Shown here: positions 26,080 to 42,970 of the stretch, piece by piece
Position numbering within the stretch: position 1 is the stretch's first letter
Layout of the letters: each line of letters starts with the position of its first letter
Source of the DNA: Veillonellaceae bacterium
Lineage (GTDB): Bacteria > Bacillota > Negativicutes > JAAYSF01
NCBI GenBank assembly: GCA_012523975.1
Contig: JAAYSF010000004.1
Location: 1-50,648 of the forward strand
DNA: 50,648 bases
Direction: 5' to 3'
Program-made: the position numbers and the translations under genes
Notes under the pieces: model-generated
What the model saw: the letters and a program-made list of their open reading frames with translations, nothing else
What the model was told of the DNA's origin: nothing
The model's database searches: none

Positions 26080-27057
26080 ATGAAACAGAAAATCCGCATA
26101 GGCATTGTAGGCTATGGAAACCTTGGTAAAGGCGCTGAACTGGCTATCGGCAACCAGCCCGACATGGAACTTGTTGCTATATTCTCGCGCCGCAAACTTG
26201 ACAGGACATTAAGCGGCGTTCCCGCAGTATCAGTTGATGACGCTGCTCAATATAAAGATAAAATCGACGTTATGCTGCTATGCGGCGGCTCGGCAACCGA
26301 CCTTGTAGAGCAAGGGCCGCACTTCGCAGCTTTGTTCAATACAGTCGACAGTTTCGATACCCATGCTAAAATTCCCGAATACTTTGCCGCTATCGATTCG
26401 GCCGCCAAAGCCGCCGGTAAAGCTGCTACAATCTCAGTTGGATGGGACCCTGGGCTTTTTTCGCTTAACCGACTGCTGGCCGGCGCTATTCTGCCGCAAG
26501 GCACCGATTATACTTTCTGGGGCAAAGGCGTCAGCCAAGGCCATTCGGACGCAATTCGCCGTATCCCCGGGGTTAAAGACGCTAAACAGTACACGATCCC
26601 GAAAGACGAAATCATTAATGCGGTACGGGCAGGTCAGTCTCCAACTGTTACAGCTAAGGAGTCACATCTTCGGGACTGCTACGTCGTTGCCGAGGAGGGT
26701 GCCGACCTTAAAACGATTGAAACCGCCATCAAAACAATGCCCAACTACTTCGCCGGCTATGAAACTCATGTGCATTTTCTCTCAGCGGAAGAGTTTCGGC
26801 AGAACCATTCCGCAATCCCGCACGGTGGTTTCGTATTCCGTATCGGCCAAACCAGTCAAGGCACTAACCATATCTATGAATTTGCGCTTAAACTTGGCAG
26901 CAACCCCGAATTCACTTCCTGCGTCTTAACGGCTTATGCTCGGGCAACCTTCCGTTTGGCCGCTCATGGTTTTGCCGGGGCAGCAACGGTATTTGATATC
27001 CCATACGCATGGCTTTCACCAAAATCCGGTGAAGAATTACGCCGCCAGCTTCTTTAG
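26080..27057 (+). CDS. ddh: meso-Diaminopimelate D-dehydrogenase
   Basis: A 325-residue NADPH-dependent enzyme that makes meso-diaminopimelate directly from tetrahydrodipicolinate and ammonia, for lysine and cell-wall synthesis. The N-terminal Rossmann motif is GIVGYGNLGKGAE, followed by AIFSRR in the NADP-binding region. The substrate part has the DSFDTHAKIPEY and VGWDPGLFSLNR segments conserved in Ddh. AAAGGAG precedes the ATG. It appears to be monocistronic, with a promoter and T-box leader for the next operon after it. Confidence 0.93.
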   Translation: MKQKIRIGIVGYGNLGKGAELAIGNQPDMELVAIFSRRKLDRTLSGVPAVSVDDAAQYKDKIDVMLLCGGSATDLVEQGPHFAALFNTVDSFDTHAKIPEYFAAIDSAAKAAGKAATISVGWDPGLFSLNRLLAGAILPQGTDYTFWGKGVSQGHSDAIRRIPGVKDAKQYTIPKDEIINAVRAGQSPTVTAKESHLRDCYVVAEEGADLKTIETAIKTMPNYFAGYETHVHFLSAEEFRQNHSAIPHGGFVFRIGQTSQGTNHIYEFALKLGSNPEFTSCVLTAYARATFRLAAHGFAGAATVFDIPYAWLSPKSGEELRRQLL

Positions 27058-27070
27058 AAATAAATAACTA

Positions 27071-27100
27071 TTGACAGCCGCCTGTCTTTATAGTTATACT
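27071..27100 (+). promoter_or_regulatory. Sigma-A-type promoter of the T-box operon
   Basis: TTGACA (27071-27076), an 18-base spacer, and TATACT (27095-27100). Transcription would start near 27107, just before the T-box stem I. Confidence 0.65.
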
Positions 27101-27106
27101 TGGTGT

Positions 27107-27402
27107 TAAATAAACACATGAATCATCGATGACCAGGAAGAGTAAACATTACTCAGAGGGTTTCAGCGAGCCAACGGCGGTGAGAGGTTGGCACTACTCG
27201 ATATGTTGAATGGGCCTGGGAGATACAGTCCGATCCACTTTGTGGGGTAGGCGCTGTCGGAATCTTCTACCGTTAACAAGAAGCGGGTATCGGACCAATG
27301 GTCCCGTACTTAGTAAGCCGGGCTGTACATACAGCCAATTAGGGTGGCACCGCGGGTTAACCCCTCGTCCCTATCTATTAAGATAGGGATGAGGGGTTTT
27401 TT
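27107..27402 (+). promoter_or_regulatory. T-box leader, tryptophan specifier (UGG)
   Basis: The leader carries the T-box core AGGGTGGCACCGCGG (27341-27355) and then a 16-bp terminator (27361-27376 with 27381-27396) and six T. In stem I the lower helix is CCAGG (27133-27137) with CCTGG (27215-27219), and the upper helix is AACAT (27145-27149) with ATGTT (27203-27207). Between them AAGAGTA faces GAATGGG, so the specifier is UGG at 27211-27213, the Trp codon. The bulge base in UGGC pairs with a G discriminator, as expected for tRNA-Trp. Uncharged tRNA-Trp would therefore switch on the transporter genes downstream. Confidence 0.9.
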
Positions 27403-27432
27403 GGTATTCAAATAAAGGAGGAATGATGTGTA

Positions 27433-28020
27433 ATGGAACTCAAAAACCAAAATCAAGAAATGACTGCTTTCGAAACTAATAAAGGTGGCAACTATCGTTG
27501 GGTTACAATCACCACTTTACTCCTGGCGATCGGCGCTATACTGCATCTAATCAGCCCCAGCATCGGCGGGGTAACACCAAACTGGACTATTGCTATGTAC
27601 TGCATTGCTATTAATCTGACCAGACCGACACTCGGCCAATCTCTCGGTATTGGCCTTGTAGCAGCGGCCATTAACATACCGACCTCAAAATCAGCTTTTC
27701 CTTATGGCAACCTTTTAAGCGAACCAATTGGAGCTTTAGTCTGCGCTATCATTGTCAGTCTTTCGGTAAGCATGACAATCGGGAACTTCAACTTAAAACC
27801 TGGTGTGAGCGGCTTTTTAAGCACAGTGGCCAGCGGCATGGCCTTTGTAACGCTTTTAAAAGTTGTCCTGTCACTCCCCATGGAAGTTTATCTTTACGCC
27901 ATGATTCCAGTTGTCTTTACAGTTGCAGCGCTAAACGGCGCTATTACCCAAATCCTCTTCTTCCCAGCCCAAAAACTTTTCAACCTAAAAGGAGACAGCA
28001 ATGGCAGCAATAACCTTTAA
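27433..28020 (+). CDS. trpP: TrpP-like tryptophan transporter S component
   Basis: A 195-residue membrane protein with about 6 helices. AIGAILHLISPSIG, KSAFPYGNLLSEPIGA and the C-terminal AALNGAITQILFFP match the layout of TrpP and ECF substrate-binding components. Followed directly by two ATPases and a T subunit, it is the likely specificity subunit of an ECF importer. The Trp T-box upstream makes tryptophan, or a close precursor, the best candidate substrate. AAAGGAGG lies 11 bases before the ATG. The stop overlaps the next gene. Confidence 0.8.
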   Translation: MELKNQNQEMTAFETNKGGNYRWVTITTLLLAIGAILHLISPSIGGVTPNWTIAMYCIAINLTRPTLGQSLGIGLVAAAINIPTSKSAFPYGNLLSEPIGALVCAIIVSLSVSMTIGNFNLKPGVSGFLSTVASGMAFVTLLKVVLSLPMEVYLYAMIPVVFTVAALNGAITQILFFPAQKLFNLKGDSNGSNNL

Positions 28021-28864
28021 CAATTTCAGTTACGCCTACAAACATACGCAAAAAGCGCTTGATAATATCAGTATCACTGTTGAGCAAGGCTCCTTTACAG
28101 CCGTAATCGGCCGAAGCGGTGCCGGCAAGACAACGCTTTGCCTAGCTGTCGCCGGTGCCGTACCCCACTATTTTGGTGGCAGTCTTGCGGGAAGTGTTAC
28201 CGTTGATAACATGTCGACCCAGACTACCGCCATGCATGATTTAGCCCAATCAGTCGGCACGGTGCTCCAAGATTATGAGACCCAACTAGTCACCATGACT
28301 GTTGAAGAAGAGGTTGCCTTTAGTTTAGAAAACCGCGGCCTTGGCAGGAATGAAATCGCGGCTTGTGTATCGGAAACCCTGGCCAAAGTCGGCCTTACCG
28401 GCTTTGAAAAAAAGGAAGTTTCTGCATTGTCCGGCGGCCAAAAACAACGTTTGGTCATTGCCAGTGTCCTGGCTTCCAACCCTAAAATCTTAGTACTTGA
28501 CGAGCCGACTTCGGCCCTTGACCCTGAAGGTACCGAATCAATATATAAATTGCTTGCTGAACTAAATAAAGAGTACGGCATCACCATTATCGTTGTCGAA
28601 CACGAAACAGCCAGGGTTTTACCATATGCCGACCAGTTTATCCTCATGGAAAATGGTCAGTGTATCCAAAGCGCCGACCCAGACCAAGTTCTTACCTATA
28701 TGTGGAAACATCAAATATATACCGAAGCTATTCCACCGCTGTGGGAGCTTAAGCTAACCCTGCAGGACCAAACCGGAGTCCGGTTTAGTGCTTGGCGCAA
28801 TGAACAGGACGCCGTAGATGAACTGCGCAAGGCCTTGAAAAAGGAGGCCTGTATAAGTGCTTGA
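28001..28864 (+). CDS. ecfA1: ECF transporter ATPase (EcfA, first copy)
   Basis: A 287-residue ABC ATPase. Walker A is GRSGAGKTTL, the Q-loop is VLQDYETQL, the signature is LSGGQKQRL, and Walker B is ILVLDEPTSALD, followed by the switch His in VEHE. It pairs with the next ATPase to energise the ECF module. The gene overlaps the S-component gene by 20 bases. AAAGGAG sits before the ATG. Confidence 0.92.
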   Translation: MAAITFNNFSYAYKHTQKALDNISITVEQGSFTAVIGRSGAGKTTLCLAVAGAVPHYFGGSLAGSVTVDNMSTQTTAMHDLAQSVGTVLQDYETQLVTMTVEEEVAFSLENRGLGRNEIAACVSETLAKVGLTGFEKKEVSALSGGQKQRLVIASVLASNPKILVLDEPTSALDPEGTESIYKLLAELNKEYGITIIVVEHETARVLPYADQFILMENGQCIQSADPDQVLTYMWKHQIYTEAIPPLWELKLTLQDQTGVRFSAWRNEQDAVDELRKALKKEACISA

Positions 28865-29699
28865 ATTGAAAAATGTCTGCTTCGCCTATAAAAAACAGGC
28901 TCCAGTAATTAATGATGTTTCTCTGACCATAAAACCCGGCGAATTTTTAGCAATCGCCGGACGCAACGGCAGTGGCAAAACTACCCTAACCCGCCTGATT
29001 ATGGCGCTCAGAAAGCCGTCTTCAGGTGAAATTACCTTAGATGGCTGTTCTACTAAAAAGTTTGGTCCGGCCGAAATGGCGCGGAGTATCGGATATGTTT
29101 TTCAAAATCCTGACCGCCAGATTTTTCGGGATACAGTAGCTAGCGAAGTTTCTTACGGGCCAGAGCAGTTAGGATATGCTCCGACTCTAACCGCGGAGCT
29201 TGTCAGCCAGGCTCTAGCAGCTACCGATTTAACCGAGCTGGCGTCCGCTTATCCGCCTTCACTGTCGCGCGGGCAAAAGCAGCGTCTGGCAATAGCCTCC
29301 GCCTTGGCGATGAAGCCTAGAATGCTCATCCTAGATGAGCCTACCAGCGGTCAGGATGGCCGCGAACGGGACCAGTTGATGAAGCTATTAACTAAATTAA
29401 ATCAGCAGGGGCTTGCCATATTATTGATAACGCATGATATGGACCTGTTAGCGGCCTATGCCAAACGGGTTGTTGTCATGGATAACGGCTCTAAAGCGTT
29501 TGACGGAAGCATAGCAGAGCTTTTCGCTGATGCCTGCCGGCTTAAAAAGTGGGGTCTAACCGAACCTACCGTTATAAACATATCACAAGCTTTAGCCAAT
29601 TACGGCATTACAACGACAACCTCGATCAGTGAATTAAGCAATAAATTAATTGATATTCTGGGGAGGAACACCCATGCAAAAGACAGCTCCGCTTACTAA
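28857..29699 (+). CDS. ecfA2: ECF transporter ATPase (EcfA, second copy)
   Basis: A 280-residue ABC ATPase starting with GTG behind AAAGGAGG. Walker A is GRNGSGKTTL, the Q-loop region is YVFQNPDRQIF, the signature is LSRGQKQRL (Arg in place of the first Gly), and Walker B is MLILDEPTSGQD, followed by ITHD. It overlaps the first ATPase gene by 8 bases. It is probably a heterodimer partner. Confidence 0.92.
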   Translation: MLELKNVCFAYKKQAPVINDVSLTIKPGEFLAIAGRNGSGKTTLTRLIMALRKPSSGEITLDGCSTKKFGPAEMARSIGYVFQNPDRQIFRDTVASEVSYGPEQLGYAPTLTAELVSQALAATDLTELASAYPPSLSRGQKQRLAIASALAMKPRMLILDEPTSGQDGRERDQLMKLLTKLNQQGLAILLITHDMDLLAAYAKRVVVMDNGSKAFDGSIAELFADACRLKKWGLTEPTVINISQALANYGITTTTSISELSNKLIDILGRNTHAKDSSAY

Positions 29700-30342
29700 A
29701 TTGATTCTCACCGTCTTTGTTACCATATGGGCAATTATGCTCGAATCAATTCCCGCCCTCGCAATCTTAATCGGAGCACAATTGCTTATTCTCATACTGT
29801 CCAGAGTCAACGCTAGCATCTACAAAGGCGTAGCTAGTTTACTCCTTTTTGCAGTTATGCTCGGCATCCTGCAGTATGTATTTAATAGTGATATCACGCT
29901 TGCAGCTTTAACTGCTCTTAAAATGACGGCCATGACGCTAATTTTCGTAATCTTACTGACTACAACCAGAATGCAGGATTTGTCAGCAGCCTTAGTTACC
30001 CAGTGCCGTGTCCCTTATGAATATGCCTTTATGCTGACAGCCGCACTGCGGTTTATCCCGGACTTTTTGGCAGAAAGCAAATCAATCCAAGAGGCTCAGG
30101 CCTGCCGCGGTTTTTCAGCCGGCGGTAATCCCATAACCCGCCTGACCTCCTATATGGCAATAATTAAACCACTTGTTTTAAAAGCTGTCGGCCGCTCCGA
30201 AACAATGGCTTTAAGCCTTGAACTGCGCGGTTTCGGCAGCAAACGAACCCGTAGTTTTAGCACCAATGTTGCGCTAGCTACAATCGATTATGCTATGCTG
30301 GCTGCAATGGTAGCAGTTACAGTCGGCCTTGTAATAATATAA
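29674..30342 (+). CDS. ecfT: ECF transporter T component (EcfT)
   Basis: A 222-residue membrane protein with about 5-6 helices. It carries the two coupling motifs of EcfT, ACRGFSAGG (about 142-150) and ELRGFGSK (about 181-188), which contact the ATPases. The start at 29674 has GGGGAGGAAC upstream and lies inside the preceding gene, a normal translational coupling. An in-frame start at 29650 lacks a ribosome site. Confidence 0.9.
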   Translation: MQKTAPLTKLILTVFVTIWAIMLESIPALAILIGAQLLILILSRVNASIYKGVASLLLFAVMLGILQYVFNSDITLAALTALKMTAMTLIFVILLTTTRMQDLSAALVTQCRVPYEYAFMLTAALRFIPDFLAESKSIQEAQACRGFSAGGNPITRLTSYMAIIKPLVLKAVGRSETMALSLELRGFGSKRTRSFSTNVALATIDYAMLAAMVAVTVGLVII

Positions 30343-30364: not shown

Positions 30365-30408
30365 AAAAAAAAGCAAGCGGCACTGACAGGTGCCGGCTTG
30401 CTTTTTTA
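30365..30408 (+). terminator. Terminator of the ECF operon
   Basis: A 13-bp stem (30371-30383 with 30390-30403, one bulged G) with a 6-base loop and a six-T tail. Confidence 0.85.
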
Positions 30409-30595: not shown

Positions 30596-30946
30596 TTAAT
30601 TATTATCTAATACAAGAGCCAGGATTGCTAATGCTCCCAGACTACGCATAACTTCCTCGTGATGCTCTTTCTCGCGCTTCATTCGCTCATGATATTGCCA
30701 ATCACTTTCATGGGAATGCCGTTTCATCTCACGCGCATGCCGTTCTCTTTCTGCTTTTATACGGCGTTCGCGATCATCATCATGATCCCTGTGTCGATCA
30801 TAGCGCTGTTCATAGTGTTTTCCATGATGTTTGCCTTTGTGCTTATTATCATGTTTAGACGATGCCTCAGTTATCGATGCCCCTATCCCAACCTGCATAA
30901 CTCCGATTAATGAAAAAACCACTAATTTTTTAACAAAGCTATTCAT
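30596..30946 (-). CDS. Secreted histidine-rich protein
   Basis: A 116-residue protein of no family I recognise. The frame is open to 31000, but the ATG at 30946 has AAAGGGGG upstream and begins a signal peptide (about 1-28) ending near SITEA. The mature part is very basic with many His and Lys, then His/Arg/Asp/Glu runs such as RHRDHDDDRERR, then a hydrophobic C-terminal LGALAILALVL. The charged middle may form a helix and could bind metal, but no defined site is visible. It has its own terminator and stands alone. Confidence 0.55.
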   Translation of the reverse strand: MNSFVKKLVVFSLIGVMQVGIGASITEASSKHDNKHKGKHHGKHYEQRYDRHRDHDDDRERRIKAERERHAREMKRHSHESDWQYHERMKREKEHHEEVMRSLGALAILALVLDNN

Positions 30947-31096
30947 TTCTAATTTGCCCCCTTTTGCTATTACGGTGGGTCTGGTAACCTTACAATGCAA
31001 TTATAGGTGGCAAATTTTAGATTTATTTTAGAATAATTTACATAATATATGAATTTAGTTTACATAATTTAATAATGGGCCATTGGCCCACTTTAT

Positions 31097-41339: not shown

Positions 41340-41502
41340 CTTTACACCTCATTTATAAGCTTTTTCAGCAATTCGGAAATATTTTTATAAGACTGATATT
41401 GGCTATATAGTTAGTATTTTACCATGAATAACTTTACTTGCCCATTTTTGACTTTACACATTACTTGAGTAGATGTAAAATTAGGATAGAATAATAATAT
41501 TG

Positions 41503-41583
41503 GGATAGCTAGGGGTGCCAATGGCTGAGAGGAGATTACTCCAACCCTCGAACCTGAAGTGGTTAGAACCACCGTAGGAAAGC
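41503..41583 (+). promoter_or_regulatory. TPP riboswitch
   Basis: The thi-box landmarks are in order: AGGGGTGCC (41511-41519), GGCTGAGAG (41523-41531), ACCCT, GAACCTGAAGTGGTTAGAA and CCGTAGGAA (41572-41580). It lies directly before thiC. Bound thiamine pyrophosphate should favour the terminator that follows. Confidence 0.93.
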
Positions 41584-41595
41584 TTCGCTTAACTT

Positions 41596-41622
41596 AAGCT
41601 TACTTACGGGTAGGCTTTTTTG
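41596..41622 (+). terminator. Riboswitch-controlled terminator
   Basis: AAGCTTAC (41596-41603) pairs with GTAGGCTT (41610-41617), one G-T pair, followed by a T run. It is 50 bases before the thiC start and is the expression platform of the TPP switch. Confidence 0.8.
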
Positions 41623-41671
41623 TTTTGGAACTTTCTGCTGCTGCCTAGTTATCGAAAGTGAGGATGGACCT

Positions 41672-42970
41672 ATGTACACAACTCAAATGGATGCTGCAAA
41701 GAAGGGCATAATCACAAATCAAATGCGCGTCGTAGCCGAAAAGGAAAAAATCGAACCTGAAACTTTGCGTAACCTAGTCGCTGAAGGTAAAGTTGCCATA
41801 CCGGCAAATATAAATCACACCAACCTTAGCCCTGAAGGCATCGGGCAAGGACTTCGCACCAAAATCAATGTTAATCTCGGTGTTTCAAAAGACTGCAATG
41901 ATGTCGAATTAGAGATGAAAAAGGCTGCAAAGGCAATCGAACTAAAAGCTGAGGCCATTATGGATCTTAGCTGCTTCGGTAAGACTGAGGATTTCCGGCG
42001 CAAGCTGGTTGCTTTTTCCCCTGCTATGATTGGAACTGTTCCGATGTATGACGCTGTAGGAATGCTTGATAAGGATTTGAAAGACATTACCGTGGATGAG
42101 TTCTTCTCGGTTGTTGAAAAACATGCTCAAGACGGCGTAGACTTTATGACAATTCACTGCGGCATGAATCGTGCAACTGCCGAACGGGTTAAACGAAATA
42201 AGCGCCTTACTAACATTGTTTCACGGGGCGGTTCATTGCTTTTTGCCTGGATGGAACTTAATAATCAGGAGAATCCGTTCTACGAACACTTCGACAGACT
42301 GCTTGATATTTGCGAGAAATACGATGTAACTTTAAGTCTGGGCGACGCCTGCCGTCCCGGCTCGATTAATGACTCTACTGATGCCGCCCAAATCGAAGAA
42401 CTGATTACCCTTGGCGAGCTGACCAAAAGAGCTTGGGCCCGAAATGTCCAAGTTATGATCGAGGGTCCCGGCCACATGGCATTAAATGAAATAGCCGCAA
42501 ACATGCTCTTAGAGAAAAAACTCTGCCACGGCGCACCATTTTATGTTTTAGGGCCAATTGTTACCGATGTCGCGCCAGGCTACGATCATATAACCAGTGC
42601 AATCGGCGGGGCGATAGCCGCAGCAAGCGGAGCTGACTTCCTTTGCTATGTAACACCGGCTGAACACCTCCGGCTGCCGGACTTGGATGATATGAAGGAA
42701 GGTATAATCGCAGCGCGAATCGCCGCCCATGCCGCCGATATTGCCAAAGGCATCCCGGGAGCACGGGAATGGGATAATCAAATGAGCCAAGCCCGGGCTG
42801 ACGTCAATTTCCCGCGGATGATCGAATTAGCAATCGACCCAGAGAAGGCCAGAAGATATCGGGAATCCTCCCGTCCGGAATGCGATGACACCTGTACCAT
42901 GTGTGGTAAAATGTGCCCGATGAAAAATATGAAGAAAATCTTAAACGGTGAGGATTTAAGTATAATCTAA
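41672..42970 (+). CDS. thiC: Phosphomethylpyrimidine synthase
   Basis: A 432-residue radical-SAM enzyme that makes the thiamine pyrimidine from aminoimidazole ribotide. It has [11 protein letters not shown], the FMTIHCGMN segment, [25 protein letters not shown] and [14 protein letters not shown]. The C-terminal cluster motif is [10 protein letters not shown]. The length fits the short bacterial form. The upstream TPP riboswitch gives feedback control. GAGGATGG precedes the ATG. Confidence 0.97.

Follow-up and report, generated by a model that had tools for sequence, protein, structure and literature searches.

Introduction

In Bacillus subtilis, six S proteins, TrpP among them, work with a common energy-coupling factor (ECF) module (PMC11487621), and deletion of trpP leads to resistance to 5-fluorotryptophan (PMC13170310). 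ECF transporters include group I, in which the S component has a dedicated module, and group II, in which it is believed to detach (PMC10368641), and their T component is defined by two motifs with a central arginine (PMC3246461). Here, we describe a locus of a Veillonellaceae bacterium (Bacillota; Negativicutes; assembly GCA_012523975.1) at positions 27,107 to 30,342 of contig JAAYSF010000004.1, the whole analysed stretch of 50,648 nucleotides being referred to as the window. A T-box leader predicted to sense tRNA-Trp stands there before the genes of a TrpP-family S component, two ECF ATPases (A1 and A2) and a T component. The leader very probably regulates a tryptophan-importing ECF transporter of the dedicated type (group I), the proposed transport and substrate being drawn from B. 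subtilis TrpP and the proposed docking of the parts from known ECF families. To our knowledge, group I ECF transporters mostly carry vitamins and metals.

The T-box leader and its specifier codon

The regulatory elements that precede the operon are as follows.

27120..27375, forward strand: T-box leader RNA (Rfam RF00230, 112.1 bits, cut-off 93, E-value 4.7e-24)
27211..27213, forward strand: specifier codon UGG (Trp), immediately 3′ of GAA (sequence GAA-UGG-G-CC)
27345..27348, forward strand: T-box bulge UGGC, matching G73 of tRNA-Trp (from the sequence and the genome's own tRNA-Trp genes)
27359..27398, forward strand: intrinsic terminator, exclusive with the antiterminator (common strand CCCCUCGUCCCU; fold of -33.2 kcal/mol, a value reached by 0 of 200 shuffles)

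The leader aligns to the full RF00230 model (positions 1-219 of 219). A first-pass annotation, made from the letters of the window, had read the specifier as UGG and the bulge base as fitting the tRNA-Trp discriminator, and both readings hold: the covariance-model scan brought up no other specifier codon, and UGG follows GAA in all 36 leaders, found by the T-box motif alone, that stand beside S genes elsewhere in the class Negativicutes. The genome carries two tRNA-Trp genes with anticodon CCA (pattern search), and because both end in ...CCCCT-G-CCA, the discriminator is G73, which pairs with the C of UGGC. Of the 36 class leaders, 28 carry a UGGC bulge and 8 a UGGU bulge. The terminator is an 18-bp hairpin followed by a T run, and it uses the antiterminator strand. 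Stem I folded alone was no better than its shuffles (z 0.42) and is thermodynamically uninformative, so its assignment rests on the covariance model and conservation. Sequence and conservation support the leader, codon, bulge and terminator as a regulatory unit, and antitermination is the outcome that known T-box families would predict.

The genome (2.47 Mb in 99 contigs) holds 20 T-boxes at E-values up to 0.001. The control leaders agree with the genes that follow them (leuS CUC, tyrS UAC, valS GUA, pheS UUC, ileS AUC and cysE UGC), the gene names being our reading of the translations and other leaders, such as those of serA and glyQ, lying outside the codon comparison. GAA followed by UGG occurs in three leaders: that of the window, that of a trpD-F-C-B-A-E-G operon (trpD, trpE and trpB backed by NCBIfam, the remaining genes named by eye) and that of a ubiD-trpB2 pair. 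The window leader and the ubiD leader both have a UGGC bulge; that of the trp operon leader is UGGU and would require a G-U pair with G73, and that of the cysE leader (L010) is UGGA. Since the Phe, Leu and Val leaders of the same genome have their codon at least one base further from GAA, a neighbouring triplet of the window leader, AUG (Met) or GGG (Gly), might be taken for the specifier. Such a shift is extremely improbable given that GAAUGG recurs identically before the genome's own trp operon, that UGG is invariant in the class leaders and that UGGC fits G73 of tRNA-Trp. The discriminator is A73 in tRNA-Met and U73 in tRNA-Gly, and the AUG and GGG frames were rejected as conflicting with the UGGC bulge base and with GAAUGG of the trp operon.

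The ubiD-trpB2 pair of this genome lies on contig C42 (L102, 5273-8178), where its UGG T-box is followed by the gene for a decarboxylase of the UbiD family and another trpB gene, whose proteins are 84-85% identical to those of another genome (G001), where a T-box is likewise present; in a third genome (G027), the order is trpB-ubiD-ubiX and the proteins are 59-61% identical to the ubiD-trpB2 proteins of the window's genome. A UbiD-type indole-3-carboxylate decarboxylase has been published (PMC8988006), and the pair might convert an indole carboxylic acid to tryptophan by way of indole. On contig C15 of the window's genome (L003), a T-box with a UUC (Phe) specifier lies 5′ of a phenylacetate-CoA-ligase-like gene (named by eye).

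The four transporter genes and their proteins

The leader is followed by four genes.

27433..28020, forward strand: TrpP-family S component with six predicted membrane helices (Pfam PF17099, 41 bits, cut-off 27.2)
28001..28864, forward strand: first ECF ATPase, A1 (Pfam ABC_tran; NCBIfam ECF ATPase models score best, under their cut-off; motifs intact)
28857..29699, forward strand: second ECF ATPase, A2, with a GTG start (Pfam ABC_tran; NCBIfam ECF ATPase models score best, under their cut-off; motifs intact)
29674..30342, forward strand: T component of the CbiQ/EcfT family, carrying CRG and LRG motifs (Pfam PF02361, 72.3 bits, cut-off 25)

The Pfam matches and the overlaps between successive frames (20 bases for S/A1, 8 for A1/A2 and 26 for A2/T) bear out the overlapping operon of a TrpP-like S component, two ATPases and a T component that the first-pass annotation had described. 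Walker A, signature and Walker B sequences are intact in both ATPases, and the two Arg-Gly motifs, CRG and LRG, are conserved across the alignment of 41 T proteins.

A structure model of the S component, built from 41 sequences, has six helices and a mean predicted local distance difference test (pLDDT) score of 82. The first 20 rows of its VIA-align comparison are S components (Z 15.9 to 10.4), headed by PanT (Z 15.9, 172 residues aligned, 3.1 Å) and continuing with ThiT, RibU, FolT and BioY; two of these rows are titled only 'transporter' and 'transition metal transporter', and we take them to be S components. Rank 21 is MreD, a protein reported to have the S-component fold as well. Foldseek gave a weak best E-value (0.098) at a probability of 1.00, a sequence search of solved structures found no relative (best E-value 1.3), and NCBIfam holds no model for the S protein; its sole NCBIfam match, a fluoride channel model (E-value 0.025), was discarded as noise. 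The S alignment contains 15 invariant residues, including N50, Y56, S85, K86, P90, T131, S134 and G135.

Conservation and rearrangement within the class

Among 60 genomes of the class, 45 contain TrpP (48 match rows). Leaving out the row of the window itself and a weak second match in one genome (G020), we fetched 46 loci. A1, A2 and T lie beside S in 41 of the 46, a count that includes one locus with T cut by the contig end (L071) and one with A1 split over two frames (L076); the other five are three orphan S genes (L059, L060 and L061) and two loci cut by contig ends (L068 and L083). The arrangement that marks group I, an S gene accompanied by A and T genes of its own, is found in the window and in these 41 loci. 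The T-box motif occurs within 900 nucleotides of S in the 36 loci whose leaders are described above and 5′ of A2 instead of S in three (L082, L094 and L095), the motif search finding no T-box in seven (L057, L058, L075, L083, L084, L086 and L090).

A survey of named relatives found 125, of which 80 were kept for analysis; nearly all are Negativicutes (Pelosinus, Sporomusa, Veillonella, Megasphaera and Phascolarctobacterium), with a few other names on metagenome bins. The module is present in 70 of these loci, no module is adjacent in 7, and 3 are cut. A UGG T-box lies within 900 nucleotides of S in 45 of the 80 and 5′ of a rearranged A2 in 11 more, two loci with a UGG T-box about 1.6 kb before A2 (L159 and L160) being uncounted in the 11. 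When 14 loci lacking the motif near S were scanned with Rfam, four (L125, L135, L139 and L157) had a T-box before A2 and ten showed none at the cut-off; one of these ten (L149) has the motif and GAAUGG before A2.

In Megasphaera and its kin, the order is A2-T-(S-A1), with the UGG T-box before A2. In three Selenomonadales bins (L153, L163 and L169), the A1-A2-T module and S form separate units, each with an Rfam T-box and both with GAAUGG. Because the rearranged loci have these separate UGG T-boxes, the energy genes would be under tRNA-Trp control in their own right, and such loci are the strongest evidence for a dedicated module. S and A1 share one open frame in 36 of the 80 named loci, and the linker of the predicted fusion is 28-30 residues long in 26 of 35 motif-picked proteins, the motif giving no length in the other 9. 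These S-ATPase single chains occur between L124 and L160, in Veillonella, Megasphaera, Anaeroglobus and relatives (for example, L126 4965-6590 and L139 4968-6443).

Extra S genes with a UGG T-box and no module (L059, L061, L127 and others) are present in genomes that also hold the full operon (G034, G058 and Sporomusa malonica); a further genome, G048, shows only the module-less copy. A few Negativicutes thus have an extra or sole S with no module next to it, and the module could be used by several copies of TrpP. The S-ATPase fusions argue for exclusive use of the module, and the orphan S copies argue against strict exclusivity.

Two forms of TrpP beyond the class

Across the phylum, TrpP was found in 62 of 199 sampled genomes (66 rows, 63 of them outside the class), and 40 of the 63 were fetched: 16 of 17 rows at 29.9-65.6 bits, a 111-base fragment being dropped, and 24 of 43 rows at 90 bits or above. 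All 16 divergent loci, whose scores resemble the 41 bits of the S component in the window, follow the order S-A1-A2-T, and 23 of the 24 classical TrpP genes stand alone; the module adjoining the sole exception (L227) resembles the shared type. A tree of 86 S proteins splits the 24 classical sequences from the 62 others with full support, L203 being excluded on account of an S split between two frames. In the T tree, 40 of the 41 T proteins from Negativicutes group in a single clade, away from shared T. The exception, L058, is odd in the S tree as well, which joint inheritance of S and T would lead one to expect. Bootstraps of the T tree are unsettled and one branch is very long, so that only the Negativicutes clade is used here, and dedicated T proteins from outside the class are not separated from shared T. 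A T-box with GAAUGG, detected by Rfam, precedes 4 of the 24 classical loci, so the link between TrpP and tryptophan control spans both forms.

CbiQ-family T genes stand at three sites of the window's genome: the window itself, a ribosomal operon with a shared EcfA1-A2-T module behind rplQ and a CbiMNQO cobalt set, the last two named from translations. The TrpP of the window thus has a module to itself although a shared one exists. The presence of that shared module, the orphan UGG-controlled S genes of Sporomusa and others and the use of a shared module by B. subtilis TrpP (PMC11487621) could suggest that TrpP works with the module of the ribosomal operon and that the adjacent one is general. 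We judge this less likely, and indeed improbable, in view of the synteny in 41 of 46 class loci, the S-ATPase fusions in 36 of 80 named loci, the separate UGG leaders on the module and the Negativicutes T clade with its one outlier. The same synteny, fusions and leaders support the dedicated rather than shared module that had been proposed on first reading, for what is a predicted importer.

There is a slightly better than even chance that TrpP exists in two ancient forms, one solitary with a shared motor and one dedicated with its own, and that the S-ATPase chain, which has no means of letting S go into the membrane, imports by toppling in place. If true, the fusion would be an exception, found in nature, to the release of S that has been proposed for ECF transporters of the shared type.

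Several of the dedicated loci outside the class (L193, L194, L195, L190 and L191) continue into indolepyruvate oxidoreductase or PaaK-like genes; in three of this group, iorA and iorB-type genes follow the operon. An iorB-type gene also lies behind the module in L203, and two outside loci have a PaaK-like gene; three iorA genes were the only ones to pass the NCBIfam cut-off. These neighbours would fit aromatic amino acid catabolism.

Proposed substrate and mechanism

When uncharged tRNA-Trp accumulates, pairing of its anticodon with the stem I codon UGG, and of its NCCA end with the antiterminator bulge UGGC, would keep the terminator from forming, and trpP-ecfA-ecfA'-ecfT would be transcribed. 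TrpP would then bind extracellular tryptophan and, docked to the T component and the pair of ATPases from its operon, import the amino acid at the cost of ATP. The same signal of low charged tRNA-Trp should induce the trp operon and ubiD-trpB2.

Several observations weigh against a dedicated tryptophan importer of this kind. The S component of the window is divergent, scoring 41 bits against PF17099 where most classical TrpP proteins reach 120-187. At the helix-1 AXXXA motif of S components (as defined in PMC11109136), it has T28-xxx-A32; across 47 sequences, position 28 is alanine in 25, threonine in 19 and serine in 3, and position 32 is alanine in 45. No T-box was found at the Rfam cut-off in the 12 scanned of the 16 dedicated loci outside the class, and 9 of 10 scanned loci of Veillonella and relatives without the motif had no T-box at that cut-off or were partly covered. 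S genes without an adjacent module make up 3 of the 46 class loci and 7 of the 80 named loci.

The divergence of S bears in particular on the substrate. The importer may take a precursor or relative of tryptophan or several aromatics (indole, indolepyruvate, kynurenine, anthranilate or Tyr/Phe), with the Trp T-box in control because the import feeds the tryptophan pool. Among the 16 outside loci, the iorA/iorB-type genes of three, the iorB-type gene of L203 and the PaaK-like genes of two would suit this, as such enzymes handle aryl pyruvates and arylacetates generally, and the UGG leader before ubiD-trpB2 in the window's genome points to the use of an indole source. The characterized relative, B. 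subtilis TrpP, is nevertheless tied to tryptophan itself by 5-fluorotryptophan resistance (PMC13170310), and UGG T-boxes in 4 of 24 fetched classical loci outside the class point the same way, which leaves such a substrate unlikely and tryptophan the preferred one.

Surroundings of the operon

Two further elements flank the leader and genes.

27071..27100, forward strand: sigma-70-type promoter-like site TTGACA-18-TATACT (consensus scan, 11/12 matches)
30366..30407, forward strand: hairpin and T run 3′ of the operon, a likely terminator (fold of -26 kcal/mol, a value reached by 0 of 200 shuffles; also in the scan)

Promoter-like sites are overall no commoner than in shuffles, so the evidence for the first of these is weak. 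Directly 5′ of it lies a gene for diaminopimelate dehydrogenase (26080-27057; NCBIfam TIGR01921, 430 bits), with no evident link to the operon. The open reading frame downstream (30596-31000, reverse strand) has only Pfam matches under the families' cut-offs, and a thiamine pyrophosphate riboswitch lies 5′ of a ThiC-like gene (named by eye) at 41501-42970.

Comparison with known systems

In the open-licence literature, mostly judged by title or start of abstract, no description was found of TrpP with its own module or as an S-ATPase fusion, and one may be in print; the likeliest places are Rodionov 2009 (ECF transporters) and Vitreschak 2008 (T-boxes). The parts of the system are known; their combination, with TrpP as the S component of a group I ECF importer, is a variant for which we found no description, though it may already have been published. 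The operon can be assigned a putative substrate, regulator and motor together, and it would extend group I ECF transport to an amino acid. The split between shared and dedicated TrpP, together with the natural fusions, offers a direct way to ask if transport requires S to leave the motor. In annotation, the T gene and the two ATPase genes, easily called a 'cobalt transporter', would be better named as parts of a tryptophan importer.

The closest relative described is B. subtilis TrpP (YhaG), a TrpP-family S component linked to tryptophan uptake (PMC13170310) in a species that is itself among the PF17099 matches; it shares EcfA1A2T and is controlled by TRAP, whereas the window system is under a T-box. 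CD1988 of Clostridioides difficile, a putative tryptophan transport protein, is likewise preceded by a T-box (PMC11477304); the classical TrpP loci fetched here mostly stand alone. In Streptococcus suis, the TrpX system likewise places tryptophan uptake under a T-box (PMC9382623), but it has the substrate-binding protein TrpX of a conventional ATP-binding cassette (ABC) importer, in contrast to the ECF type of the window. The group I transporters BioMNY and CbiMNQO have the same layout, an S component and its dedicated A/T module in one operon (PMC3246461, PMC10368641), and differ in their vitamin or metal substrates from a system that would carry an amino acid, is under T-box control and has S-ATPase fusions among its relatives.

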